Assembly (NCBI RefSeq): GCF_020990385.1
Contig: NZ_CP087598.1
Coordinates: 1,927,001-1,991,000, forward strand
Source of the DNA: Paracoccus sp. MA
GTDB taxonomy: Bacteria > Pseudomonadota > Alphaproteobacteria > Rhodobacterales > Rhodobacteraceae
Length of the DNA stretch: 64,000 bases
Reading direction: 5' to 3'
Shown here: positions 2,098 to 16,484 of the stretch, one piece after another
Position numbering within the stretch: the first letter of the stretch is position 1
Layout of the letters: every line of letters begins with the position of its first letter
Translations under genes and position numbers: made by a program
Notes under the pieces: generated by a model
Seen by the model: the letters and a program-made list of their open reading frames with translations, nothing else
Databases searched by the model: none
What the model was told of the DNA's origin: nothing

Positions 2098-3204
2098 TTA
2101 TTCCTGAACCGCCGCGCCGACGACGCTGTCCCAGCCCTCGGTCACGACCTTCTTGTTGGCCTCCTGCTGCTCCAGCGTCGGGAAGATCGCCTTTTCATAG
2201 GCCGAGGCCTCGGGCAGCGCGTCCAGCAGCTCCTGCGGGACCTTGCCGTTCTGGACGAGGTCGTTGAAGCGGATCGGGTGGCAATAGCCTTTCAGCCAGC
2301 CAAGCTGGCCCTCGTCCGAGTAAAGATATTCCATCCACAGCTTGGCCGCGTTCGGATGCGGCGCATAGGCCGAGATCGCCTGCACATAGACGCCCGCGAC
2401 CACGCCGTCCTCGGGGATGATGACCTCGACCGGCGGATTGCCGTTCAGGCTGTCGCGCCAGCTGAGCAGGTTGTAGTCCCAGGCGGTGACGATCGGCGTC
2501 GCGCCCTGGGCGATGGTCGCCGACTTGCCGATGACCGGGACGAAATTGCCGGCCTTGTGCACCTCGGCCATCAGCTCCATGCCCTTCTGGCCGGATGCCT
2601 CGCCCGGCTCGCCGCCATTGGCGATGCCTGCCGCCATGACCGAGATGATCGCCTGGGCCGAGGCGCGCGGATCGCCCGCCAGCGCGAAGGCATTGGCATA
2701 TTCCGGCTTGGTCAGGTCCTTCCAGCTTTTCGGCGCCTCGTCGATCAGGTCGGTGTTCACGCCAAAGGCCATCACGCCGTAATAATCGCCATACCAATAG
2801 CCCTCGGCATCCTTGGCGTCGTCGGGGATCGTGTCCCAGGTGGCGACCTTGTAGGGCTGGATCAGCCCTTCGGCCTTGGCCTGCGGCCCGAAGGACAGGC
2901 CCACGTCGATCACATCGGGCGCCTGCGGGCCCTTGTTGTCCCTGTTGGCGCGGATCGCCTCCAGCTCGTCGGCCGAACCGGCATCGGGGTTCAGCTCGTT
3001 GACCCTGATTTCCGGGTATTTGGCCTTGAAGCCGGCGATCACCTCGCCATAGCCGCACCAGTCATGCGGCAGCGCGATGGTGGTCAGCATGCCCTCGGCC
3101 TTGGCCGCCTCCTCGAGCGCCGCCAGATCCTGCGCCGAGGCGGCGCCCGCGGTCGCCAGCAGCGTCACGGCGGCCAGCCCCGCCGCGGTCGATTGAATGG
3201 TCAT
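2098..3204 (-). CDS. extracellular solute-binding protein of the ABC importer
   Basis: Periplasmic ligand-binding protein of 368 residues. A Sec signal peptide is visible (hydrophobic stretch then AGAASA-QD, cleavage near residue 24). The rest has the family 1 binding-protein pattern (PDVIDVGLSFGP, YGVMAFGVNTDLI, a late W-rich segment) seen in PotD-, FbpA- and AEP-type proteins. It is the first gene of a four-gene minus-strand operon with two permeases and an ATPase. The family assignment is safe. Polyamine, iron, thiamine and phosphonate ligands are all possible and I cannot choose. Confidence 0.88.
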   Translation of the reverse strand: MTIQSTAAGLAAVTLLATAGAASAQDLAALEEAAKAEGMLTTIALPHDWCGYGEVIAGFKAKYPEIRVNELNPDAGSADELEAIRANRDNKGPQAPDVIDVGLSFGPQAKAEGLIQPYKVATWDTIPDDAKDAEGYWYGDYYGVMAFGVNTDLIDEAPKSWKDLTKPEYANAFALAGDPRASAQAIISVMAAGIANGGEPGEASGQKGMELMAEVHKAGNFVPVIGKSATIAQGATPIVTAWDYNLLSWRDSLNGNPPVEVIIPEDGVVAGVYVQAISAYAPHPNAAKLWMEYLYSDEGQLGWLKGYCHPIRFNDLVQNGKVPQELLDALPEASAYEKAIFPTLEQQEANKKVVTEGWDSVVGAAVQE

Positions 3205-4189: not shown

Positions 4190-4288
4190 CGCCCGGCCTC
4201 ACGAATGCATTCCCGGCCGACGATGCCGCAACACGGGACCGCTGTCACCGGGATTCTTGCGCCCCTGCGGCAACTTGGCCGCATGCTG

Positions 4289-4317
4289 TTTGCATCGGCC
4301 CGCGCATCCCCTAGAAG
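4289..4317 (+). promoter_or_regulatory. candidate sigma-70 promoter of mutS
   Basis: TTTGCA, a 17-nt spacer, then TAGAAG. Each hexamer matches 4 of 6 consensus bases. It would start transcription about 22 nt before the mutS ATG, inside the 156-nt divergent gap. Visual match only. Confidence 0.35.
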
Positions 4318-4345
4318 AACGGGACCGCAGGCGACAAGGCTGGAC

Positions 4346-6982
4346 ATGAGCGATCAACCCACCCCGATGATGGCGCAGTATCTTGCGATCCGCGAGGCCA
4401 ATCCCGGCGCGCTGCTGTTCTATCGCATGGGCGATTTCTACGAGATGTTCTTCGAGGACGCGGTCGCCGCAGCCGCGGCGCTGGACATCGCGCTGACCAA
4501 GCGCGGCACGCATCTGGGCGAACCGATCCCGATGTGCGGCGTGCCGGTCCATGCGGCTGAAAGCTACCTGCTGACGCTGATCCGCAAGGGTTTTCGTGTC
4601 GCCATCGCCGAGCAGATGGAGGATCCGGCCGAGGCCAGGAAGCGCGGCTCGAAATCGGTCGTGGCCCGCGACGTGGTGCGGCTGGTGACGCCCGGCACGC
4701 TGACCGAGGAATCGCTCTTGGAGGCGCGGCGGCACAATTTCTTGGCCAGCTTCGCCAGCGTGCGCGAGGATTCGGCGCTGGCCTGGGTCGACATCTCGAC
4801 CGGCGCCTTCCGCGTCATGCCCTGCCCGCCGGCACGGCTGGCCCCCGAACTCGCCCGCCACGCCCCGCGCGAATTGCTGGCCGCCGAGGGCGCGCAACTG
4901 GACGAGATCGCCGCCGAGGCCGGCGCGGCCCTGACCGAACTGCCCGCCGGCAGCTTCGACAGCAGCGCCGCCACGCGCCGGCTTTGCGCGCTGTTCTCGG
5001 TCGAGACGCTGGACGGTTTCGGCCAGTTTTCCCGCGCCGAACTCGCCGCCATGGGCGCCATCGCCGATTACCTGGAGCTGACGCAGAAGGGCCGGATGCC
5101 GCTGATCCGCCCGCCGGTGCGCGAGGCGCTTGGCGGCGCCATGCAGATCGACGCCGCCACCCGCCGCAACCTGGAATTGACGCAGGCGCTGTCGGGCGGG
5201 CGCGAGGGCTCGCTGCTCTCCGCCATCGACCGCACGGTGACGGCGGGCGGCGCGCGCCTGCTGGAGCGCCGCATCAGCGCCCCCTCGCGCGACCTGGCCG
5301 AGATCCATGCCCGGCAGGCCGCCGTCGCGCATCTGGTGGACGACCCGCGCCTGACCGCCGACCTGCGCGAGGCGCTGGCGCGCGCGCCCGACATGGACCG
5401 GGCGCTGTCGCGGCTGGCGCTGGAGCGGGGCGGGCCGCGCGACCTGGCCGCGATCCGCGCCGGGCTGACGCAGGGCGCGGCCATCGCCGCCATGCTGGGC
5501 GATGACGAAATCGCCGTGCTGGCCGAGGCGGCGCGCGACCTGACCGGCCATGATGCGCTGATCGACCTCTTGGACGAGGCGCTGGTGGCCGAGCCGCCCT
5601 TGCTGGCCCGCGACGGCGGCTTCGTCGCGGCCGGCTATGACGAGGACCTGGACGAAACCCGCCGGTTGCGCGACGAGGGCCGCGGCGTCATCGCCCGGAT
5701 GCAGGCCGATTACATCGCCGAGACCAGGGTGCAGAGCCTGAAGATCAAGCACAACAATGTCTTGGGCTACTTTATTGAGACCACCTCGACCCATGCCGAG
5801 AAGATGCTGGCCCCGCCGCTGAACGAGCGTTTCATCCACCGCCAGACCACCGCGAACCAGATCCGCTTCACCACCGTGGAACTGTCGGAACTGGAAACCC
5901 GCATCCTCAACGCCCGCGACCGGGCGCTGGAGATCGAGCGCGAGATCTTTGCCCGCCTGACCCGCGCGGTGCTGGACCGCGCCGGTCCCGTCGGCCAGGC
6001 GGCCCGCGCGCTGGCCGAGATCGACCTGACCGCCGCTTTTGCCGACCTCGCCTCGGGCGAGGGCTGGGTGCGCCCCGAGGTCGATGCCAGCCGCGCCTTC
6101 GTGATCGAGGGCGGCCGGCATCCGGTGGTGGAACGCGCGCTCAAGCGCAAGGGCGAGGCCTTCGTCGCCAACGACTGCGCCCTGACCGAGGGCGAGACCC
6201 CCGCGATCTGGCTGCTGACCGGCCCGAACATGGCCGGCAAATCGACCTTTCTGCGCCAGAACGCGCTGATCGCCGTGCTGGCCCAGGCCGGGGGTTTCGT
6301 GCCTGCCCGCCGCGCCCATGTCGGCATTGTCAGCCAGCTTTTCAGCCGCGTCGGCGCGGCGGACGACCTGGCGCGCGGCCGGTCCACCTTCATGGTCGAG
6401 ATGGTCGAGACGGCGGCGATCCTGAACCAGGCCGACGACCACGCGCTGGTGATCCTGGACGAGATCGGCCGCGGCACCGCGACCTGGGACGGGCTTTCCA
6501 TCGCCTGGGCGGTGATGGAGCATCTGCACGGCAAGAACCGCTGCCGGGCGCTGTTCGCCACCCATTACCACGAGATGACCAGCCTGTCGGCCCGCCTGCC
6601 CGGCGTCGAGAACGCCACCGTCGCCGTGCGCGAATGGGAAGGCGAGGTGATCTTCCTGCACGAGGTTCGCAAAGGCGCCGCCGACCGTTCCTATGGCGTG
6701 CAGGTGGCGCGGCTGGCGGGGCTGCCGCCCTCGGTGGTGGATCGCGCCCGCGACATCCTGCACCAGCTGGAAAGCGGCGAGCGGCAGGGCACCGGCAAAC
6801 CCGCCGCGATGCTGGACGACCTGCCGCTGTTCCGCGCCGCACCGGCGCCCGCACCGGCGACCATGGCGAAACCCTCGGCGGTCGAGGAGCGGCTGCGCGG
6901 CCTGAACCCCGACACGATCAGCGCCCGCGAGGCGCTGGACCTGGTCTACGAGCTGCGCGGCCTGCTGGAGTCAGACGGCTGA
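4346..6982 (+). CDS. mutS: DNA mismatch repair protein MutS
   Basis: ATPase that recognises mismatches and small loops during post-replicative repair. It is 878 residues, close to the usual length. The mismatch-probing Phe-x-Glu is present as F31-Y-E33 in GDFYEMFFED. The ATPase domain has Walker A GPNMAGKST near residue 626, Walker B VILDEIGRGT and the ATHYHE motif. A start at 4205 would add 47 residues of non-homologous, low-quality sequence; ATG 4346 gives the normal N-terminus and is preceded by AAGG. It stands alone on the plus strand and its last 12 nt overlap the convergent glycosyltransferase gene. Confidence 0.98.
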   Translation: MSDQPTPMMAQYLAIREANPGALLFYRMGDFYEMFFEDAVAAAAALDIALTKRGTHLGEPIPMCGVPVHAAESYLLTLIRKGFRVAIAEQMEDPAEARKRGSKSVVARDVVRLVTPGTLTEESLLEARRHNFLASFASVREDSALAWVDISTGAFRVMPCPPARLAPELARHAPRELLAAEGAQLDEIAAEAGAALTELPAGSFDSSAATRRLCALFSVETLDGFGQFSRAELAAMGAIADYLELTQKGRMPLIRPPVREALGGAMQIDAATRRNLELTQALSGGREGSLLSAIDRTVTAGGARLLERRISAPSRDLAEIHARQAAVAHLVDDPRLTADLREALARAPDMDRALSRLALERGGPRDLAAIRAGLTQGAAIAAMLGDDEIAVLAEAARDLTGHDALIDLLDEALVAEPPLLARDGGFVAAGYDEDLDETRRLRDEGRGVIARMQADYIAETRVQSLKIKHNNVLGYFIETTSTHAEKMLAPPLNERFIHRQTTANQIRFTTVELSELETRILNARDRALEIEREIFARLTRAVLDRAGPVGQAARALAEIDLTAAFADLASGEGWVRPEVDASRAFVIEGGRHPVVERALKRKGEAFVANDCALTEGETPAIWLLTGPNMAGKSTFLRQNALIAVLAQAGGFVPARRAHVGIVSQLFSRVGAADDLARGRSTFMVEMVETAAILNQADDHALVILDEIGRGTATWDGLSIAWAVMEHLHGKNRCRALFATHYHEMTSLSARLPGVENATVAVREWEGEVIFLHEVRKGAADRSYGVQVARLAGLPPSVVDRARDILHQLESGERQGTGKPAAMLDDLPLFRAAPAPAPATMAKPSAVEERLRGLNPDTISAREALDLVYELRGLLESDG

Positions 6983-8335
6983 AGCCTGGGCCGGCAGGCC
7001 AGCCAGCGCATCATCCACCAGCGCCAGGATGCGCCGGGTGGCCCGGCGGCCGACATGGATGCCGACCAGCCCCTCGGACACCGGCGGAATGGCGTCCAGG
7101 CGCGACACCCCTGCGACATCGGCGAAAACCGTATCATAGCGGCAGCGCGAGACATGGGCGCAGGGCAGGAAATCGCCCCAGCGATGCATCTGGGTCTGGC
7201 GCGTAGCGATCTCGATGACCAGCGCCCCGGTCTTGGCATAGACCATGTTCGCCAGCCCGGCGCCATGCGGGGCAACCAGGATATCGGCGGCCTGCATCTG
7301 GGCGATCTGTTCGATCGGGGACAGATGCTCGAAGGCCACGCAGTGAAAGCCGCGCTCGGCCAGCCCGGCCATCAGCCTGGCCTGCCCGGTCATGCCGCGC
7401 AGACGCGCGGCGCCCCCTTCGTCGCGGCCCATCCAGACCAGCCGGGGCATCTTCTCGACCAGCTTGCGCGGCACCCGCCGCAGCGCATGTTCGCGCAACA
7501 GCCGCAGGCTGCTGTCATAGGAGGCCATGGCGACGGCCTTGCGATAGGGCGCCTCGGAGCGAAGGGTGTTCCAGCGCGGATCGACGCCGGGCTGGTTGAC
7601 GGCCGCTTGCACGCGGGGATCCTCGACCTGGTAAAGATAATGCTGGTGGCTGTAGAGCGCCCGCACCCGGTCATAGCGGCAAGCCGAACTGACGAACCGC
7701 ACGCGCGGCGCCAAGCGGGGAAAGACCGCCTCGATGAAGCCCGTCAGGAAGCCGCGCAGATTGTCCTGCGGCAGGTGCAGATTGATCGGCTGATCGCCGT
7801 CGTCCTGGACGAAGGACGCCAGGCAACCCAGGGTCTCGGTGGTGAAGTGATAATAGTTGAAACCGTTCTTCAGCTCGATGGCGACCGGCAGGTCGGCGGC
7901 GCGGTCCTTCCAGACCGGCAGGGGCAGCGCCGCCTCTTTCCGGCCGCGGCGGAATGCGCTGACCAGCCGGCCCTGCCGCCACTCCTCGGTGTTCTGCTGG
8001 TCGAACTTGTTGCGCATCCGGTTGCCGGCGGCCCCGTTCAGCCAGATGCGCCCGTCGATCATCCCGAAGGCGTTGCGGAACTGCGCATTCTCCAGCACCA
8101 CGGGCGAGGCGTTGATTTCCATGACCGTGGTCAGCAGCCGGCGCTCCTGCCTTTCGATGGCGGAGCGCTGCATGTCGCGGACCGTCGGCTCGTCGCTTTC
8201 CGCGAACAGGCGCACGGCGGCGCCCTCCACTTGGCGCAGCACCCAGCCGGGGCGCGGCGCCAGATAGGACATGCCGGGGTGGATGCCGGGGAAATGGAAC
8301 ACCGCCATGGGCGGGCGCTGGAGTTCGACGGACAT
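6971..8335 (-). CDS. glycosyltransferase family 61 (DUF563) protein
   Basis: A 454-residue protein with the hallmark C-terminal GT61 block: ADILVAPHGAGLANMVY followed by a hydrophobic strand and a histidine-containing HRWGDFLP segment. It lacks a signal peptide or membrane segments, so it probably transfers sugars in the cytoplasm to a capsule, LPS or exopolysaccharide precursor. ATG 8335 was chosen because upstream in-frame sequence belongs to the other frame of the Anbu gene. It lies only 29 nt behind Anbu on the same strand, so it may be the last gene of that operon. The acceptor is unknown. Confidence 0.82.
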   Translation of the reverse strand: MSVELQRPPMAVFHFPGIHPGMSYLAPRPGWVLRQVEGAAVRLFAESDEPTVRDMQRSAIERQERRLLTTVMEINASPVVLENAQFRNAFGMIDGRIWLNGAAGNRMRNKFDQQNTEEWRQGRLVSAFRRGRKEAALPLPVWKDRAADLPVAIELKNGFNYYHFTTETLGCLASFVQDDGDQPINLHLPQDNLRGFLTGFIEAVFPRLAPRVRFVSSACRYDRVRALYSHQHYLYQVEDPRVQAAVNQPGVDPRWNTLRSEAPYRKAVAMASYDSSLRLLREHALRRVPRKLVEKMPRLVWMGRDEGGAARLRGMTGQARLMAGLAERGFHCVAFEHLSPIEQIAQMQAADILVAPHGAGLANMVYAKTGALVIEIATRQTQMHRWGDFLPCAHVSRCRYDTVFADVAGVSRLDAIPPVSEGLVGIHVGRRATRRILALVDDALAGLPAQASAV

Positions 8336-8364
8336 GGAAAACCCTCGGGGACGGATATGCGGCG

Positions 8365-9090
8365 CTAGATCGTGACCTTGACGAAGCTGTCGCGCAGCGC
8401 GGCGGACCAGGCGGCGGACATGGCCATGAAGGCCGGGTCGCCCTCGTCGATGCGGCGCTGGTGGCTGACCCGGCAGTCGTCCCTGCGAATCACCGCCAGG
8501 TCCAGCGGCATACCCACCGACAGGTTCGAGCGCAGCGTCGAATCCATCGACAAGAGCACCGCCTTCTGCGCATCGGCCAGCGAGGTGTCGGGCCGCACCA
8601 CCCGGTCGAGGATCGGCTTGCCGTATTTGTGCTCGCCGATCTGCAGGAAGGGGGTGTCCTCGGTCGCCTCGATGAAATTGCCCTCGGGATAGATCAGGAA
8701 CAGCCGCATCTCGCCGCCCGCGCGCTGGCCGCCGACGATCATGCTGGCGCTGGCCTGCTGGTTCAGGTCGCGGCACTGCTCGACGATCTCGCGCCGGGTG
8801 CGGCTCAGCGTCCGGCCGATGATCGTCGCCACCTGCAGCATGCTGGGCGCGCGCAGGATCGAGGTCTCCTCATCGGCATCGGGCAGGTCGACGGCCTCTT
8901 GCAGCCGCGCGATGGTGGTCTGGGTCAGGGACAGGCTGCCGGCGGTCAGGACGGCGACGACCCGCTCGCCCGGCTGCTCGAAGAAGAACATCTTGCGATA
9001 GGTCGAGATATTGTCCAGCCCGGCATTGGTCCGGGTGTCCGAGAGCAGAACCAGCCCCTCGTTAAGCTTCAAGCCGACGCAATAGGTCAT
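8365..9090 (-). CDS. proteasome-type protease Anbu (COG3484)
   Basis: A 241-residue N-terminal-nucleophile hydrolase related to HslV and the 20S beta subunit. The start MTYCVGLKLNEGLVLLSDTR fits the family exactly: after Met removal Thr1 would be the nucleophile, with Asp17 and a Lys at 32 completing the proteasome-like triad (precursor Thr2, Asp18, Lys33). An upstream in-frame start at 9408 would bury the catalytic Thr, so ATG 9090 is chosen. No dedicated ATPase unfoldase is encoded nearby. It follows the transglutaminase gene after 64 nt; this four-gene neighbourhood is conserved in many proteobacteria and its substrate is not established. Confidence 0.93.
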   Translation of the reverse strand: MTYCVGLKLNEGLVLLSDTRTNAGLDNISTYRKMFFFEQPGERVVAVLTAGSLSLTQTTIARLQEAVDLPDADEETSILRAPSMLQVATIIGRTLSRTRREIVEQCRDLNQQASASMIVGGQRAGGEMRLFLIYPEGNFIEATEDTPFLQIGEHKYGKPILDRVVRPDTSLADAQKAVLLSMDSTLRSNLSVGMPLDLAVIRRDDCRVSHQRRIDEGDPAFMAMSAAWSAALRDSFVKVTI

Positions 9091-9154
9091 GTCCGTTCCA
9101 TGGCACGCATTCCCCCGAGGGATACGACCGCCCCGCGCCCGGCGCAACAGGGGG

Positions 9155-9961
9155 TTACTGTTCCATTTCCTCGACCTGCACCCGCACGTCCAGGCTTTCC
9201 CGGCCCGAGCCGAAGGTGGTGCCGCGCACCGGCGCCGCGTCCTGCGCGTCCAGCCCCGAGCCCAGCCGGACATAGCGGTCGTCCGGGCAGCAGGCATTGG
9301 CGGCGTCGAAGCCGACCCAGCCCAGGGTGCCGACATGGATCTCGGCCCAGGCATGGGCGGCGTCATGCGGCTCGCCCCCGGCATTGGAATGCAGATAGCC
9401 CGAGACATAGCGCGCCGGCAGGCCGCGTTCGCGGGCGCAGGCGATCAGCGCATGGGCATGGTCCTGGCAGACCCCCTGCCCCAGCGCCAGCGCCTCGGCG
9501 GCGGTGGTATGCGCCTCGGTCACGCCCGGCTCGTAGGCGATGGCGCGCGACACCGCCGCGGCCAGCCGGTGCGCAAGGTCCAGCCCGTCCTCGCCCTGTT
9601 CGCAACCGGCCAGCTCGCGCAGCGCCGCATCAAGCCGGGTCGCCGGCGTCGGGCGCAGATAGACCAGCGGATTCACCGTCTCGCGATGGCCGCGCAGCAC
9701 GCCGGCGGTGTCGCGGGTCTCGACCTGGCCGGCGATCGAGACCACGACCTCCTGCACCGGCCCGCGCACGGTCCAGCCCTCGATCCAGTCGCCGGCGCCG
9801 TCGCGGAAGGCGACGCCGCGCTGGCCGCCGCTGACCGAAATCGTCCAATCCGCCACCCGCTGCCCCTCGTGGACCGAGGGCGTCAGCCGCAGGCTCTGCA
9901 CCAGTCCCTGCGCCGGCGGGTCGTAGAAATAGCTGGTCTCGTGGGTGATCTTCAGCCGCAT
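9155..9961 (-). CDS. transglutaminase-like cysteine protease family protein
   Basis: A 268-residue protein with an N-terminal beta-rich region (MRLKITHETSYFYDPPAQGL) and a transglutaminase-like core. The catalytic Cys is in ALGQGVCQDHAHALIACARERG, the His in DAAHAWAEIHVG and the Asp in VGFDAANAC. It is the COG1305 member regularly found beside alpha-E and ATP-grasp genes. It probably cleaves or exchanges amide or peptide bonds made by the neighbouring ATP-grasp enzyme. Only 10 nt separate it from the alpha-E gene. No signal peptide, so cytoplasmic. Confidence 0.9.
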   Translation of the reverse strand: MRLKITHETSYFYDPPAQGLVQSLRLTPSVHEGQRVADWTISVSGGQRGVAFRDGAGDWIEGWTVRGPVQEVVVSIAGQVETRDTAGVLRGHRETVNPLVYLRPTPATRLDAALRELAGCEQGEDGLDLAHRLAAAVSRAIAYEPGVTEAHTTAAEALALGQGVCQDHAHALIACARERGLPARYVSGYLHSNAGGEPHDAAHAWAEIHVGTLGWVGFDAANACCPDDRYVRLGSGLDAQDAAPVRGTTFGSGRESLDVRVQVEEMEQ

Positions 9962-9971
9962 CGTCCGCCCC

Positions 9972-10931
9972 CTACATCCGTCCGCTCAGGTAATCGTCAT
10001 GCACGGCGTTCGAGATGCTGGCCAGCTCGTTGATGAACCAGGACAGGAATTCGTGCAGCCCCTCGTCGAAGATCGCCTCGATGTCGCGGGCCATCAGCTG
10101 CTCCAGCGTCTGATGCGCCCGGGCCGAGGCGCTGGCCGGCACATCGGCGCCATAGCGGCGCACCAGCCCGTCCAGATGCCAGACCGCCTCGTAAAGCGAG
10201 GTCAGCAGCGAACGCGGGCTTTCGCCGTTCAGGATCAGGAAATCCGCGACCTTGCTGGCCGTCACCTCGCCGCCATAGGCCCAGTGGAAGGCCCGATGCG
10301 CCGAAAGCGCGCGCAGGATCACCTGCCACTGGTAATTGTCGAGGCCCGAGCCGACGAACTCGACCCGCGGCAGCAGCACGAAATACTTCACGTCCAGCAG
10401 CCGGGCGGTGGCGTCGGCGCGCTCCAGCGAATAGCCCAGATTGATGAAATGCCAGCCGTCGTTGCGCAATTGCGTGGCGTTCATGGCGCCGCGCACGGTC
10501 GAGCCGTGCCGGGTGGTGAAATCGGTCAGCAGCGCGGTGTCGAGCTGGCCGCGCGGCCGGCGCTGCAGCGCCCGCAGTTCCTGATAGGCGGTGTTCAGCG
10601 CGTCCCAGACCTGGCTGGTCAGCGCCGTGCGCACGATCCGCCCGCCCTCGCGCGCCCTTTCGATGCAGGAGGCGACCGAGGACGGATTGGCGTGGTCGAA
10701 GAACAGCCAGCTTTCGATATTCTCCTGCGTGATCTCGTCGCCGTAATGCCCGGCAAAGGCAGCCTGCGCCCCCGAGGCGCGCAGAAGCGATTCCCATTCG
10801 TTGCGATAGCCCTCGGCGGTGTTCGGCAGCAAGGTGATGCGCGCGCCCACGTCCAGCAGGCGGGCGGCGGTTTCGGCGCGTTCCAGGTGACGGCCCATCC
10901 AGAACAGGTTGGCGGCGGTGCGGCTGAGCAT
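9972..10931 (-). CDS. alpha-E domain-containing protein (DUF403/COG2307)
   Basis: A 319-residue, almost entirely alpha-helical protein that opens with the family signature MLSRTAANLFWMGRHLERAE and contains repeated helices with conserved Glu and Arg (NLGYSLERADATARLLDVKY). The family has no proven activity and is found almost only next to the ATP-grasp gene that precedes it here by 12 nt, sometimes fused to it. Comparative genomics has suggested an accessory role in a peptide or amide ligation system. The assignment is firm, the function unknown. Confidence 0.92.
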   Translation of the reverse strand: MLSRTAANLFWMGRHLERAETAARLLDVGARITLLPNTAEGYRNEWESLLRASGAQAAFAGHYGDEITQENIESWLFFDHANPSSVASCIERAREGGRIVRTALTSQVWDALNTAYQELRALQRRPRGQLDTALLTDFTTRHGSTVRGAMNATQLRNDGWHFINLGYSLERADATARLLDVKYFVLLPRVEFVGSGLDNYQWQVILRALSAHRAFHWAYGGEVTASKVADFLILNGESPRSLLTSLYEAVWHLDGLVRRYGADVPASASARAHQTLEQLMARDIEAIFDEGLHEFLSWFINELASISNAVHDDYLSGRM

Positions 10932-10943
10932 GGCTGACCTTTC

Positions 10944-12356
10944 CTATTCCGACAGGACCCAGGTGTCCTTGACGCCCCCGCCCTGCGACGAGTTCACCAC
11001 CAGCGAGCCCTCGCGCAGCGCCACGCGGGTCAGCCCGCCCGGCACCAGCTCGACCCGGTCGCCGCAAAGGCAGAAGGGGCGCAGGTCGACATGGCGCGGC
11101 GCCACCCCCTCCTCCACGAAGGTCGGGCTGGTGGACAGCGCCAGCGTCGGCTGGGCGATGTAATTGCCGGGATCGGCCTTGATGCGCTCGGCGAAGGAGG
11201 CGATCTCGGCCTGGCTGGCGCAGGGGCCGATCAGCATGCCGTAGCCGCCCGAGCCATGCACCTCCTTGACCACCAGGTCCTTCAGGTTGGCCATGACGTA
11301 GCGGTAATCCTCGTCCTTCCACAGCGTCCAGGTCTGGACGTTGCGCAGGATCGGCTCTTCGCCCAGATAGAAGCGGACCATCTCGGGCACGAATGTATAG
11401 ACCGCCTTGTCGTCGGCCACCCCTGCCCCCGGCGCCGAGGCGATGGAAACCCCGCCCGAGCGATAGACATCCATCAGCCCCGGCACGCCCAGCATGGAAT
11501 CGCGCCGGAAGCACAGCGGGTCAAGGAAGGGGTCGTCGATGCGGCGATAGATCACGTCCACCCGCTTCGGCCCCTGCGTGGTGCGCATGTAGACGAAACC
11601 GCCATCGACGAACAGGTCGCTGCCCTCGACCAGTTCCACCCCCATCAGGTTGGCAAGGAAACTGTGCTCGTAATAGGCGCTGTTGTAATGGCCCGGCGTC
11701 AGGATCACCACGGTCGGCGTGCCCTCGCATTTCGCCGGCGCCACCGAGGCGAGCGTGCGGCGCAGCAGCTCGGGATACTGGTCCACCGGCTCGATGCGGT
11801 TGTTGCGGAACAGCGCCGGGAACATGCGCATCATGATCTCGCGGTTTTCCAGCATGTAGCTGACGCCCGAGGGGGTGCGGCAATTGTCCTCGAGCACGTA
11901 GAACTCGTCCCGGCCGGTGCGCACGATGTCGATGCCGACGATATGCGAGAACACCCCGCGCGGCGGCACGAAGCCGACCACCGCCTTTTCATAGGCATCG
12001 TTCTGATAGACCAGCCGCGCCGGGATGCGGCCGGCGCGCACGATCTCGCCCCGACCGTAGACGTCGCGCAGGAAGGCGTTCAGCGCCCGCGCCCGCTGCT
12101 TGATGCCGCGTTCCAGCCGCCGCCATTCGCTTTGCAGGAACACCCGCGGCATCATGTCGAAGGGGATCAGCCGGTCCGGGTCGCCGCCCTCGCCATAGAC
12201 CGCGAAGGTGATGCCGATGCGGCGAAACAGCGCCTCGGCCTCGGCCTGCTTCATCTGGCGGATCTCGGCGGGCATGGTCTCGATCCAGTCCGAGAGCATG
12301 GCATAGGGCTCGCGCACCCGGCCGCCATCGACCATTTCATTGTAATAGATCGTCAT
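10944..12356 (-). CDS. circularly permuted type 2 ATP-grasp protein (COG2308)
   Basis: A 470-residue putative ATP-dependent carboxylate-amine (amide/peptide) ligase. The family start YYNEMVDGGRVREPY is present, followed by VFVPPRG-like and LEDNCRTPSGVSYMLENR (metal-binding Glu/Asn region), TPGHYNSAYYEHSFLA, and GSGGYGMLIG, the displaced nucleotide-binding loop. ATG 12356 gives the normal N-terminus; the in-frame extension to 12539 has no family similarity. It is the first gene of the minus-strand unit ATP-grasp, alpha-E, transglutaminase, Anbu and possibly GT61. The substrate is unknown. Confidence 0.93.
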   Translation of the reverse strand: MTIYYNEMVDGGRVREPYAMLSDWIETMPAEIRQMKQAEAEALFRRIGITFAVYGEGGDPDRLIPFDMMPRVFLQSEWRRLERGIKQRARALNAFLRDVYGRGEIVRAGRIPARLVYQNDAYEKAVVGFVPPRGVFSHIVGIDIVRTGRDEFYVLEDNCRTPSGVSYMLENREIMMRMFPALFRNNRIEPVDQYPELLRRTLASVAPAKCEGTPTVVILTPGHYNSAYYEHSFLANLMGVELVEGSDLFVDGGFVYMRTTQGPKRVDVIYRRIDDPFLDPLCFRRDSMLGVPGLMDVYRSGGVSIASAPGAGVADDKAVYTFVPEMVRFYLGEEPILRNVQTWTLWKDEDYRYVMANLKDLVVKEVHGSGGYGMLIGPCASQAEIASFAERIKADPGNYIAQPTLALSTSPTFVEEGVAPRHVDLRPFCLCGDRVELVPGGLTRVALREGSLVVNSSQGGGVKDTWVLSE

Positions 12357-12556
12357 CACTGCAACCCTCACCTCTGGCCCCGATCTTCGCATCTGGGCCG
12401 GCGCTGTCCACAGCGCCGCGCCCTGCGGGCAAAAGGAAATCCGGGTTTGACGAGGCCGGGGCGCTTTCTGCCCGCAGAATAGGCAAAGGACCGGCCGCAC
12501 CCTCCGCGACAACGGCGAATCGCGGGAAAAGCCCGGCAAAAGGGCCGCGATGCCCT

Positions 12557-12578: not shown

Positions 12579-14930
12579 TCAGACGATGATCAGGTCGTCC
12601 TGCAGCGCGGCGATATTGGCGAAGCCGTTCAGCGTCAGCACATTGCCATTGCCGAAGTCGAAGACGGTATTGCCGTCCACGGCCCGGGCATATTGCAGCA
12701 CCTGCGCCACGCTGCGCGTCCCGCCGCCCCAAAGCGCGTCGTCGATGCGCAGCGTGTCGATATTGTCCTGAAAATCGCGCACCACGTCCCGCCCGCCGTG
12801 AAAGGCGAAGTGATCGGCCCCCGCACCGCCCAGCAGCGTGTCGTTGCCATAGCCGCCGATCAGCAGGTCGGCCCCGGCGCCGCCTTCCAGCCAGTCATGG
12901 CCGTTGCCGCCGTCCAGCGTGTCATTGCCGCCCAGGCCCAGCAGCGTGTCGTTGCCCTGAAAGCCGCTCAGCCGGTTGGCATGGGCATTGCCGGTGATCC
13001 GGTTCGCCAGCGCATTGCCGCCGCCGTTCTGCGCCGCGCCCGAAATCAGCACCAGGTTTTCCAGATTGGCGCCCAGCTGCAGGCTCGCGGTCGAGCGCAC
13101 CACGTCGATGCCCGCCCCCGCCGCCTCGACGATCCGGTCCAGGCCGTCGGTGACATAGGTGTCGTTGCCCGGCCCGCCCTCCAGCAGGTCGGCCCCGGCG
13201 CCGCCGTCCAGCCAGTCATTGCCGTTGCCGCCCACCAGCGTGTCGTTGCCGCCCAGCCCCAGCAGCGTGTCGAACCCCTGCAGCCCGCTCAGCCGGTTGG
13301 CATGGGCATTGCCGGTGATCCGGTTCGCCAGCCCGTTGCCGGTGCCGTTCTGCGCCGCGTCCGAAATCAGCACCAGGTTTTCCAGATTGGCGCCCAGCTG
13401 GATGCTCGCATGCGACCGCACCGTGTCGATGCCGGCATCCGTCGCCTCGACGATGCGGTCGGCCGCATCCACGACATAGGTGTCGTTGCCTCGGCCGCCT
13501 TCCAGCAGATCGGCGCCGCCCTGGCCGTTCAGCGTGTCGTTTCCGTCATTGCCGCGCAGCGTGTCATTGCCCGGCCCGCCGCGCAGCAGGTTGTTGGTCC
13601 AGTTGCCGATCACCACGTCGTTGCCGCGCCCGGCCTGCACGTTCTCGATCAGCGTGCCCGGCGCGATCGAGATGTTGCCGACCAGCCCATAGGCGTTCGA
13701 GACCGTTCCCGGTGCCAGCGAGATGCGCTGATTATGCGTATCGGTGGCCAGGTCCAGCATGTCCACGCCGCCCTGGTCGAAGATGGCGAAGGTGATGTCG
13801 TCGCGCGTGCTGGCATTGCGCAGCAGGCCCGCGATGGTGGCATAGCTGGGACCGGCATTGGTGGTTTCGCCATAGGTGTTGTTGCCGGTGCGGATGCCCG
13901 AGACGCCGTAAAGCCGCTGCATCGCCAGGATGTCGGCCATCATCGCCGAGACGGCATAGGCATAGCTGGCATTCACCGAGCTGTTCTGGCGCTGGTCGAA
14001 ATAGGACATGACCGAGGCCTGCCAGCTGTCGTTCAGATAGTGGTTGTCCACGCCATAGGTGGCACCGCCGTTGTAATTGCCGGCATGGCCCAGTCCCAGG
14101 GCGTGGCCGATCTCGTGGATATAGGTCTGGTAGCTATAGGTGTTGTAGCCGGGGCCGTAGCTGCTCAGCCAGTCCAGCCCCACATTCACCTCCGAGCTGA
14201 TGATCCTGCCGCCGCTGATGATCGACGAGGACCAGGCCCCCGGCTGGTTGTCGTCGAAGGTGATGTGGATGGCGGCGTTCGGGCCGGGGTTGCGGTTGAA
14301 GGTCAGGCCGGTCGCCTGCTCCCATGCCGACAGCGCCATGCTGGCCAGCTGCCGCCCCGCCGGGGTCAGGCCGGACAGGTCGACGTTCAGGACCCCGCCC
14401 GGGCCCGGCTCGAACGCCCGGCGTGCACCGCCGCTGGCCTGCCAATAGCCGTCGGTCAGCTGCTGGGCGATCTCGGCCATGGTGAAGTTGCGCAGCGGCG
14501 CGACCGCGGCGACCCCCAGGCTGTAGGCGCCGCTATAGGCGCCGGCATAGCTGCCCGCCTCGAGGTAATAGGTGGCCGGGGCGGCCACGTTCAGCACCAG
14601 CCGCGAGTTCAGCCCGTTGCCGTCGTCGTTCTGGGCGATCAGCGCACCGTTGCCGTTCATCACCCGCAGATAGGGGTCGTGAACCCCGGCCGCGCCTCGC
14701 GAATCCAGGGTGATGACATAGCTGCCCGGCTGCAGCTGCACCCGCACCCAGTCCCGGTCGCCCGCGCCCAGCACGCCGTTGAACGTGTCGCCCACGCTCA
14801 TCGCATAGCCGGTGGCGGTCGAGGCCGGGGCATCGCTGCCTTCGACCCGAAGGGCGCGCTGCGGCTCTCCGCCGCGCAGCGACGGGCCTGCAAGGCCGGT
14901 TGCGGCGGGGTTCCAGAAGGCAGGCGTCAT
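12579..14930 (-). CDS. secreted serralysin-like RTX metalloprotease (M10 family)
   Basis: A 783-residue predicted extracellular zinc protease. Residues about 40-140 resemble a pre-peptidase (PPC-like) beta domain. The catalytic domain carries HEIGHALGLGH (zinc ligands His272, His276, His282; Glu273 the base) and a Met-turn SVMSY around Met308. From about residue 432 there are nonapeptide RTX repeats (GGxGNDTL) that bind calcium, and the C-terminus ends with a short hydrophobic tail (LQDDLIIV), as expected of type I secretion substrates. There is no Sec signal. The start follows AGGAATTCCC. No type I secretion genes and no serralysin inhibitor gene are in the window, so secretion must use a transporter encoded elsewhere. 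Confidence 0.92.
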   Translation of the reverse strand: MTPAFWNPAATGLAGPSLRGGEPQRALRVEGSDAPASTATGYAMSVGDTFNGVLGAGDRDWVRVQLQPGSYVITLDSRGAAGVHDPYLRVMNGNGALIAQNDDGNGLNSRLVLNVAAPATYYLEAGSYAGAYSGAYSLGVAAVAPLRNFTMAEIAQQLTDGYWQASGGARRAFEPGPGGVLNVDLSGLTPAGRQLASMALSAWEQATGLTFNRNPGPNAAIHITFDDNQPGAWSSSIISGGRIISSEVNVGLDWLSSYGPGYNTYSYQTYIHEIGHALGLGHAGNYNGGATYGVDNHYLNDSWQASVMSYFDQRQNSSVNASYAYAVSAMMADILAMQRLYGVSGIRTGNNTYGETTNAGPSYATIAGLLRNASTRDDITFAIFDQGGVDMLDLATDTHNQRISLAPGTVSNAYGLVGNISIAPGTLIENVQAGRGNDVVIGNWTNNLLRGGPGNDTLRGNDGNDTLNGQGGADLLEGGRGNDTYVVDAADRIVEATDAGIDTVRSHASIQLGANLENLVLISDAAQNGTGNGLANRITGNAHANRLSGLQGFDTLLGLGGNDTLVGGNGNDWLDGGAGADLLEGGPGNDTYVTDGLDRIVEAAGAGIDVVRSTASLQLGANLENLVLISGAAQNGGGNALANRITGNAHANRLSGFQGNDTLLGLGGNDTLDGGNGHDWLEGGAGADLLIGGYGNDTLLGGAGADHFAFHGGRDVVRDFQDNIDTLRIDDALWGGGTRSVAQVLQYARAVDGNTVFDFGNGNVLTLNGFANIAALQDDLIIV
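12849..13490 (-). repeat. two tandem 321-nt (107-residue) modules inside the RTX protease gene
   Basis: Residues 481-587 and 588-694 of the protease are copies of one 107-residue module. Each starts GNDTYV.D, continues with LGANLENLVLIS and NRITGNAHANRLSG, and ends in RTX nonapeptides. The DNA copies (13170-13490 and 12849-13169) share long identical runs, for example around 12971 and 13292, so the duplication looks recent. Confidence 0.85.
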
Positions 14931-15520: not shown

Positions 15521-15549
15521 GATTGCGTCCTAGAAAGGGGGCAGAACAG

Positions 15550-15918
15550 ATGGGAATACCGGAAACGAACATGCAACTGACATTGCTGCCCCAGCCGGAC
15601 GGGCTGACGATCCGCGTCGATGAACGCCGCCTCGACGCCGCCATTGCCACCGCATTCAAGGACCGCGTGCGCAGCATGATCTCGGTCGGCGGGCCGCAGG
15701 TGACGCTGGATCTGGGCGGGGTCGAATTCATGGACAGCTCCGGCCTGGGCGCGGTCATCGCGATCTTCAAGGCCATGCCCGCGGGACGGCAGCTGACGCT
15801 GACCGGGCTGACGCCCAGCGTCGAGCGGGTGTTTCGCCTGACCAGGATGGACACGGTGCTGACCATCCGCAAGGCTTCCGACATGCCCGCCGCCCGAGAG
15901 GAGAGACCCGAAAGATGA
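15550..15918 (+). CDS. STAS-domain anti-anti-sigma factor (SpoIIAA/RsbV-like)
   Basis: A single-domain STAS protein of 122 residues. LDLGGVEFMDSSGLGAVIAIF contains the conserved DSSGL loop whose Ser is phosphorylated by a partner kinase. ATG 15550 is chosen because AAGGGGG lies 8 nt upstream; a TTG at 15523 and an ATG at 15571 are alternatives. Its last 4 nt overlap the ATPase gene, so the two are translated together as a partner-switch pair. No sigma factor or PP2C phosphatase gene is adjacent, so the regulated target is elsewhere. Confidence 0.9.
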   Translation: MGIPETNMQLTLLPQPDGLTIRVDERRLDAAIATAFKDRVRSMISVGGPQVTLDLGGVEFMDSSGLGAVIAIFKAMPAGRQLTLTGLTPSVERVFRLTRMDTVLTIRKASDMPAAREERPER

Positions 15919-16484
15919 GCGCCTTGCCGGACCGGGCCGAAAAGCGGCTGCGCCAGCCCCCGCCGGGGCGGCGGCCCATGTTCCACCGCATCTTCCGCGC
16001 CGATCCCGCCACCGTGCGCGCCGCGCTGCTGTTCCTGCGCGAGCGGTTCGACGGCACCGCCGGGGAGGAGGTGATCGCCAAGCTCGAACTCGCGCTGGCC
16101 GAGGTGCTGAACAACATCTGCGAACACGGCACCCGCAACGAGGCGATGCGCCTTGGCGGCCGACCCCATGCGCCGCTGATCCATCTTTGCGTGGCGCGCC
16201 ATGTCGGCGGGATCGCCTGCGCGGTGACCGATGACGGCCGGCCGCTGCCGCCCTCTTGCCTCGATCCGCGCGGCCTGCCCTATAGCGGCCCCGGGCCCCG
16301 CGACGCCGAGGCCGTCGTGATGCTGCCCGAAGGCGGGTTCGGCTGGTTCCTGATCCAGGAACTGACCGCCTCGCTCAGCTATTTCCGCGAGGGGCGGCGG
16401 AACTTCCTGGCCTTCATCGTCCCGGTGACCGAGCCGCTGCTGCCCGGCAAGCCGAATCCGGCCCCGGCGACGCCTGAGGCCTGA
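15915..16484 (+). CDS. anti-sigma factor/serine kinase of the RsbW type (HATPase_c)
   Basis: A 189-residue GHKL ATPase-domain protein. The N box is ELALAEVLNNICEHGT, followed by AVTDDGRPLP and the glycine-rich lid PEGGFGWFLIQELTASLSY. Family members bind a sigma factor or another partner and phosphorylate the STAS antagonist. It overlaps the STAS gene by 4 nt (ATGA). The proline-rich C-terminal tail PGKPNPAPATPEA is probably disordered. It converges with hspQ, 6 nt away. Confidence 0.88.
   Translation: MSALPDRAEKRLRQPPPGRRPMFHRIFRADPATVRAALLFLRERFDGTAGEEVIAKLELALAEVLNNICEHGTRNEAMRLGGRPHAPLIHLCVARHVGGIACAVTDDGRPLPPSCLDPRGLPYSGPGPRDAEAVVMLPEGGFGWFLIQELTASLSYFREGRRNFLAFIVPVTEPLLPGKPNPAPATPEA

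Follow-up and report, generated by a model that had tools for sequence, protein, structure and literature searches.

The DNA analysed here, a stretch of 64,000 nucleotides (nt) of the Paracoccus sp. MA contig NZ_CP087598.1 (positions 1,927,001 to 1,991,000; the window), carries an Anbu operon. In this operon the gene of the proteasome-like protein Anbu follows a core of three genes, which encode an ATP-grasp enzyme, an alpha-E protein and a transglutaminase-like hydrolase. The four-gene operon has already been published, and the Paracoccus locus is an ordinary case of it. A glycosyltransferase gene of the GT61 family stands behind anbu. A palindrome upstream of the ATP-grasp gene is a new element of this analysis, unnoticed in a preliminary description of the same DNA. 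The following features were assigned, in positions of the window:

10944-12356, minus strand: circularly permuted type 2 ATP-grasp protein (amide ligase-like), 470 amino acids; PF14403, E = 6e-164, 545.9 bits; PF04174, 487 bits
9972-10931, minus strand: all-helical alpha-E protein, 319 amino acids; PF04168, E = 6e-86, 289.3 bits
9155-9961, minus strand: transglutaminase-like cysteine hydrolase, 268 amino acids; PF01841, E = 4e-19; PF08379, E = 3e-17
8365-9090, minus strand: Anbu (ancestral beta subunit) with an Anbu-1-like S1 pocket, 241 amino acids; matched by solved Anbu sequences
6971-8335, minus strand: GT61 glycosyltransferase, between anbu and mutS, 454 amino acids; PF04577, E = 4e-14
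12469-12485, minus strand: TGC-N11-GCA palindrome (TGCCTATTCTGCGGGCA), proposed NtrC operator, 5' of the ATP-grasp gene; the same element is found before amtB
4205-6982, plus strand: mutS, convergent, 3' of the GT61 gene
12579-14930, minus strand: serralysin-like RTX metalloprotease, upstream of the operon

The genes for ATP-grasp, alpha-E, the transglutaminase-like protein, Anbu and GT61 all lie on the minus strand and are separated by gaps of 12, 10, 64 and 29 nt, respectively. The Pfam assignment of all five genes was unambiguous. The coordinates and Pfam matches thus bear out the gene identities, the strand and the gaps given in the preliminary description.

A conserved TGC...GCA element emerged from an alignment of 28 upstream regions of the ATP-grasp gene. 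Its occurrence was determined in the 63 Paracoccus loci with enough DNA 5' of the ATP-grasp start. A TGC-N11-GCA palindrome started between positions -138 and -95 in 48 of them, compared with a mean of 0.9 and a maximum of 4 in 300 mononucleotide shuffles. Anywhere within 220 nt it was found in 54 of the 63 loci, compared with a mean of 5.9 and a maximum of 13 in 200 dinucleotide-preserving shuffles (both sets uncorrected for shared ancestry). When upstream regions of the same length were taken from the same loci, 53 of 62 ATP-grasp genes possessed the palindrome, as against 5 of 36 for mutS, 15 of 99 for anbu, 2 of 85 for alpha-E, 1 of 83 for the transglutaminase-like gene, 0 of 19 for GT61 and 0 of 2 for the RTX protease. 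Tandem palindromes before the ATP-grasp gene were spaced by 63 nt in 16 cases and by 94-95 nt in eight, with the rest scattered; the two favoured spacings are close to whole turns of the DNA. Most core palindromes are unlike terminators, because a T-run stands behind only one of 52 core sites. A start-proximal second copy, which is present in close relatives, is degenerate in the window. The pattern used for sigma54 sites matched none of the 63 ATP-grasp upstream regions.

The palindrome was also found at nitrogen genes. The ammonium transporter gene amtB and the P-II gene are classical NtrC targets, and TGC-N11-GCA corresponds in its frame to the NtrC site of enterobacteria. Among 30 amtB loci from 26 genomes, 29 carried the palindrome within 500 nt 5' of the amtB domain, and 28 when counted before the first in-frame ATG. 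A spacing of 31 nt between amtB palindromes was observed five times, and the window genome itself shows two copies 31 nt apart upstream of its amtB. Of 25 P-II genes, 15 had the palindrome within 350 nt upstream; in the window genome this region holds TGCACAATATTGGGGCA. In the gyrB control it was present in 9 of 25 upstream regions of 500 nt, one of which had only 12 nt available. The NtrC-like response regulator encoded beside NtrB in the window genome possesses no GAFTGA loop, the part which contacts sigma54; positions 69-89 of the hidden Markov model are missing. According to the parts of PMC10274813 considered here, NtrC of the Rhodobacterales is devoid of this loop, R. capsulatus NtrC was reported to act through sigma70, and glnBA of Caulobacter is under NtrC control. 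We read the palindrome as a putative sigma54-independent NtrC operator, in line with the nitrogen control observed in Pseudomonas and Burkholderia.

The linkage of Anbu to the core was followed in 198 genomes of the family Rhodobacteraceae. The ATP-grasp family was found in 144 and Anbu in 139 of them. Comparison of the two lists by eye gave 138 genomes with both, six with ATP-grasp alone, one with Anbu alone and 53 with neither; the single Anbu-only genome is 78% complete and split into many contigs. The two proteins occur together in 138 of the 145 genomes having either, and the conserved linkage of the four families that the preliminary description had asserted was indeed found. Alpha-E was encoded behind ATP-grasp in all 30 family loci read with short flanks (L002-L031), followed by a transglutaminase match in 28. 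Within Paracoccus an Anbu match was obtained in 102 of 121 genomes, of which two (G289 and G313) are decayed and 100 are not. Contiguous ATP-grasp, alpha-E, transglutaminase-like and Anbu genes on one strand were observed in 62 of these 100 loci, and in one more which is cut by a contig end. In 22 loci inserted DNA separated anbu from the transglutaminase gene, and alpha-E and ATP-grasp were divergently placed in three. The fetched flank of anbu contained no partner gene in 12 loci, one of them at a contig end; in the other 11 genomes the ATP-grasp gene was located elsewhere, with the alpha-E and transglutaminase genes next to it. The co-occurrence in the family together with the inserted DNA and the moved cores in Paracoccus therefore demonstrates that Anbu is co-inherited with the three-gene core, yet is not bound to it and has often moved away, while the core is a tightly linked unit.

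Nine of the gaps between the transglutaminase gene and anbu were inspected, one of only 315 nt. In six (L075, L081, L089, L103, L138 and L143) a minus-strand gene was observed, which presumably encodes a CpdB-type nucleotidase; L138 contains further genes that we take to be SulP-like and agmatinase-like. More distant Anbu operons were present in seven Paracoccus genomes (L155-L161, Anbu identity 43-50%), three with divergent alpha-E and ATP-grasp genes.

Five solved Anbu sequences matched the window Anbu at 212-275 bits, among them 5nyj with 241 bits and 5loy with 275 bits. Because the gene begins with ATG-ACC, Thr1 directly follows the initiator methionine without a propeptide. The triad Thr1/Asp17/Lys32 was found in the window, where an intact Thr/Asp/Lys triad had rightly been described before, and in 99 of 99 genus sequences scored; the remaining one of the 100 genus loci (L153) lies at a contig end, is missing its first residues and was left unscored. 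The S1 pocket of the window Anbu reads T-Y-T-L-T. In P. aeruginosa Anbu it consists of T20, F30, T48, L52 and S55 and is hydrophobic to amphiphilic, while that of Anbu-2 is basic (PMC5666114, cited from part of its text). The window protein differs by conservative changes at positions 30 and 55, and its pocket is close to the hydrophobic Anbu-1 kind. In the transglutaminase-like protein, which matched 3isr at 45 bits, Cys165, His203 and Asp219 were located by their motif context and not by mapping on a structure. The ATP-grasp residues D143, E156, N158, R271/R272, K364 and S369-G373, presumably binders of ATP and Mg, were invariant in an alignment of 26 sequences, which comprised the window protein and 25 others at 54-95% identity. 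A loss of active-site residues, which the preliminary description had named as an argument against its own proposal, did not occur among these candidates. The structure 3n6x, annotated as a putative glutathionylspermidine synthase, matched the ATP-grasp protein at 642 bits over almost its entire length; the profile search of the PDB gave no match to other glutathionylspermidine synthases.

Two ER motifs of alpha-E, E17-R18 and E170-R171, were invariant in 72 sequences. The AlphaFold2 model of the protein (predicted local distance difference test score 87.9) is helical, with two similar helix sets as read by eye. Alignment of one half against the other with HHalign yielded E = 3.3e-17 over 135 columns, compared with a best E of 0.0067 among 20 column-shuffled controls. 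Alpha-E is an internal duplication with one ER motif per half. No nameable fold relative of the protein turned up. With two homologous halves, each containing an invariant Glu-Arg pair, alpha-E therefore looks like a pseudo-symmetric scaffold or a second-substrate binder for ATP-grasp.

In 11 of the 100 Paracoccus loci the GT61 gene followed anbu; these 11 all belong to the 31 loci with mutS as the next gene. No such arrangement occurred in the 138 other Anbu-containing genomes of the family, 137 of which are of other genera. A linkage of GT61 as a regular fifth gene, which had been put forward for checking, is not conserved. GT61 relatives were found in 48 of 121 Paracoccus genomes including that of the window (E of 0.001 or better). 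The family search, restricted to E of 1e-20 or better and thus not aimed at more distant GT61 proteins, revealed only six other genomes with a relative, and by coordinates none of these adjoins Anbu. Natural losses of the anbu operon (L162, L163/L184) were observed as fragments beside mutS together with a full-length GT61 gene. The operon of G289 is reduced to ATP-grasp residues 1-55 and 272-397 and Anbu residues 140-241 beside a GT61 protein of 451 amino acids, and G313 (L184, P. halophilus) retains weak Anbu pieces only and a full-length GT61 protein of 455 amino acids. In G238 the GT61 gene adjoins mutS and no Anbu was found in the genome. The GT61 domain was confirmed for G289 and G238. 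Across 13 other loci with GT61 next to mutS, the identity of GT61 to the window copy was 42-70%, that of intact Anbu 80-93%. At other places, GT61 relatives have a GT2 gene (L186) or another GT61 gene (L185, L189) as neighbour. Since GT61 is kept where anbu has decayed or is absent, is less conserved than Anbu and has relatives elsewhere, the data support its assignment as a faster-changing passenger of the gap between anbu and mutS, outside the conserved operon. In the window the GT61 gene and the convergent mutS overlap by 12 nt at their 3' ends (6971-6982). Among 10 loci in which both ends were read, nine showed an overlap of 9-37 nt and one a 3-nt gap; four more were unreadable.

In several Paracoccus loci linked to mutS, a similar RTX metalloprotease gene occupies the corresponding position. 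At 15523-16484 on the plus strand of the window, a STAS-domain protein (Pfam) is followed by a reading frame which by eye resembles an RsbW-type kinase; the two may form a partner-switch pair. The reading frame at 2098-3204 on the minus strand looks by eye like the substrate-binding protein of an ATP-binding cassette transporter.

With somewhat better than even confidence we propose that the operon is a module of amide ligation and hydrolysis for nitrogen limitation, controlled by NtrC, with the three-gene core as regulated unit and Anbu as a co-inherited, separable companion. We infer NtrC binding as well as the reaction and product of the operon as follows. Nitrogen limitation would most likely switch the Paracoccus operon on. 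Phosphorylated NtrC of the type devoid of GAFTGA would bind the palindromes, often in tandem, and activate an ordinary sigma70-type promoter. Together with its partner alpha-E, the ATP-grasp enzyme would activate a carboxylate as acyl phosphate and form an amide bond, the transglutaminase-like enzyme would hydrolyse or transfer amides, and Anbu may act as an N-terminal-threonine hydrolase on a related amide or peptide. Overall, the operon would serve to produce and recycle an amide-linked nitrogen compound in nitrogen shortage. The GT61 gene may merely be read through from the operon.

Several observations weigh against the proposed NtrC control. The window contains only one good copy of the palindrome; a second match, at -217, is palindromic and rich in G+C, lies right after the stop codon of the RTX protease gene and may belong to the end of that gene, although the scan for terminators gave no hit at this place. 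The palindrome was missing from the conserved position in 15 of the 63 loci, and it occurred within 220 nt in only 5 of 11 cores lying away from Anbu. The 63 loci come from related genomes, so that the uncorrected shuffles overstate independence. Outside the genus the signal is weak: 11 of 30 family loci contained the palindrome in about 320 nt, where the background density predicts about 5-6. Anbu genes that have moved away gave no clear sign of regulation (a palindrome within 220 nt in 7 of 33, about three expected from background), and no sigma70 promoter consensus was found upstream of the operon. Some amtB palindromes are G+C-rich and resemble those of the operon little, and 10 of the 25 P-II upstream regions possess none. 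The site might belong to another regulator, for example NtrX: the evidence for NtrC comes from sequence alone, and the genome encodes several proteins with an NtrC-type ATPase domain. However, the operon shares the palindrome with amtB and, in fewer cases, with the P-II gene, and its frame is that of NtrC sites in enterobacteria; we regard a different regulator as unlikely. The preliminary description had left two options for GT61, a passenger or a modifier of the product, and only the first was borne out. GT61 does lie on the same strand 29 nt 3' of anbu, and 11 Paracoccus genomes retain the order anbu-GT61-mutS despite GT61 identities down to 42%, which speaks for a functional fifth member that glycosylates the product or target of the operon. 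But 89 of the 100 genus loci and all 138 other Anbu-containing genomes of the family have no GT61 beside anbu, the gene remained full-length with the decayed operons of G289 and G313 and beside mutS in G238, and in three of the loci looked at elsewhere its relatives adjoin GT2 or another GT61. Such a role is highly improbable and close to refuted.

Concerning the function of the core, one proposal is that of the preliminary description and of Iyer et al. (2009, as cited by other papers): ATP-grasp would attach peptide tags to proteins, the transglutaminase-like enzyme would edit the tag, and Anbu would degrade the tagged proteins or remove the tag from them. The conserved co-occurrence of ATP-grasp and Anbu, the release of phosphate from ATP by a homologous ATP-grasp protein (PMC6376114) and the relationship of Anbu, with its triad intact, to the N-terminal nucleophile hydrolases agree with it. 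The sequence, however, lends the mechanism no support, and Anbu is physically apart from the core in many Paracoccus. In the parts of the two papers considered here, Anbu showed no peptidase activity on model substrates and no specific interaction was seen among the operon proteins (PMC6376114); no AAA+ unfoldase is associated with Anbu according to PMC5666114, whose authors judged a role in peptide synthesis less likely. Protein tagging thus appears quite improbable to us. Plain nitrogen salvage, in which nitrogen is freed from proteins or amides by Anbu together with the transglutaminase-like hydrolase and ATP-grasp serves an unrelated repair or ligation, would be in accordance with the control by nitrogen limitation suggested by the palindromes and by the P. 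putida and B. cenocepacia papers, with the proteasome-like fold of Anbu and with the higher protein turnover suggested in PMC5666114. An ATP-consuming ligase fits bulk proteolysis poorly, however; 6 of the 144 family genomes having ATP-grasp possess no Anbu, and the Anbu-like gene of P. putida responds less than its partners (PMC7801951). We consider salvage a doubtful explanation, and retain the amide module as the preferred one.

The function of the Anbu operon is still called unsettled in PMC5666114 and PMC6376114, and with the ATP-grasp family in 144 of 198 family genomes the operon is widespread. The operon was known and its observation was correct; the present analysis adds a regulatory clue, a clear answer on GT61, which drops out of the Anbu puzzle, and a proposed function. 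The candidate nitrogen-control element, conserved in a tractable genus, points to a concrete growth condition under which the product might be sought, and the natural losses of the operon offer matched comparisons.

The Anbu operon of Pseudomonas, Yersinia and other bacteria, as described in parts of PMC5666114 and PMC6376114, consists of the same four families in a conserved order, with the Anbu triad and a hydrophobic S1 pocket of the Anbu-1 type. In contrast to it, the Paracoccus window contains the passenger GT61 and the convergent mutS behind anbu, and its upstream element predicts sigma54-independent control. The P. putida operon PP_2685-2688, which likewise combines a proteasome-beta-like gene and a transglutaminase gene under nitrogen control, responds to nitrogen limitation and is likely controlled by NtrB/NtrC (PMC7801951, cited in part). 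PP_2686-2688 are induced in all three strains of its table, including an rpoN mutant, with changes of 11- to 37-fold; for PP_2685, which the paper describes as similar to the proteasome beta subunit, the change is 1.1- to 4.8-fold. The differences are that P. putida belongs to another genus, that Paracoccus NtrC is devoid of the GAFTGA loop and that the Paracoccus case was read from the DNA only. In B. cenocepacia the core-type cluster I35_5080-83 is an NtrC and sigma54 target (PMC5491218). It shares the DUF404/DUF407, DUF403 and transglutaminase-like genes, but has a second, large transglutaminase-like gene and no named Anbu; the word "proteasome" is absent from the paper. We see an even chance that the nitrogen-starvation regulon includes the Anbu core operon in alpha-, beta- and gamma-proteobacteria alike, also in those whose NtrC no longer contacts sigma54. 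The regulated unit would then be an amide-nitrogen pathway made up of ATP-grasp, the duplicated alpha-E and the transglutaminase-like hydrolase, and Anbu would be a co-inherited, separable downstream hydrolase and not the centre of the system. The Paracoccus finding fits the published nitrogen control, yet points to another molecular route.

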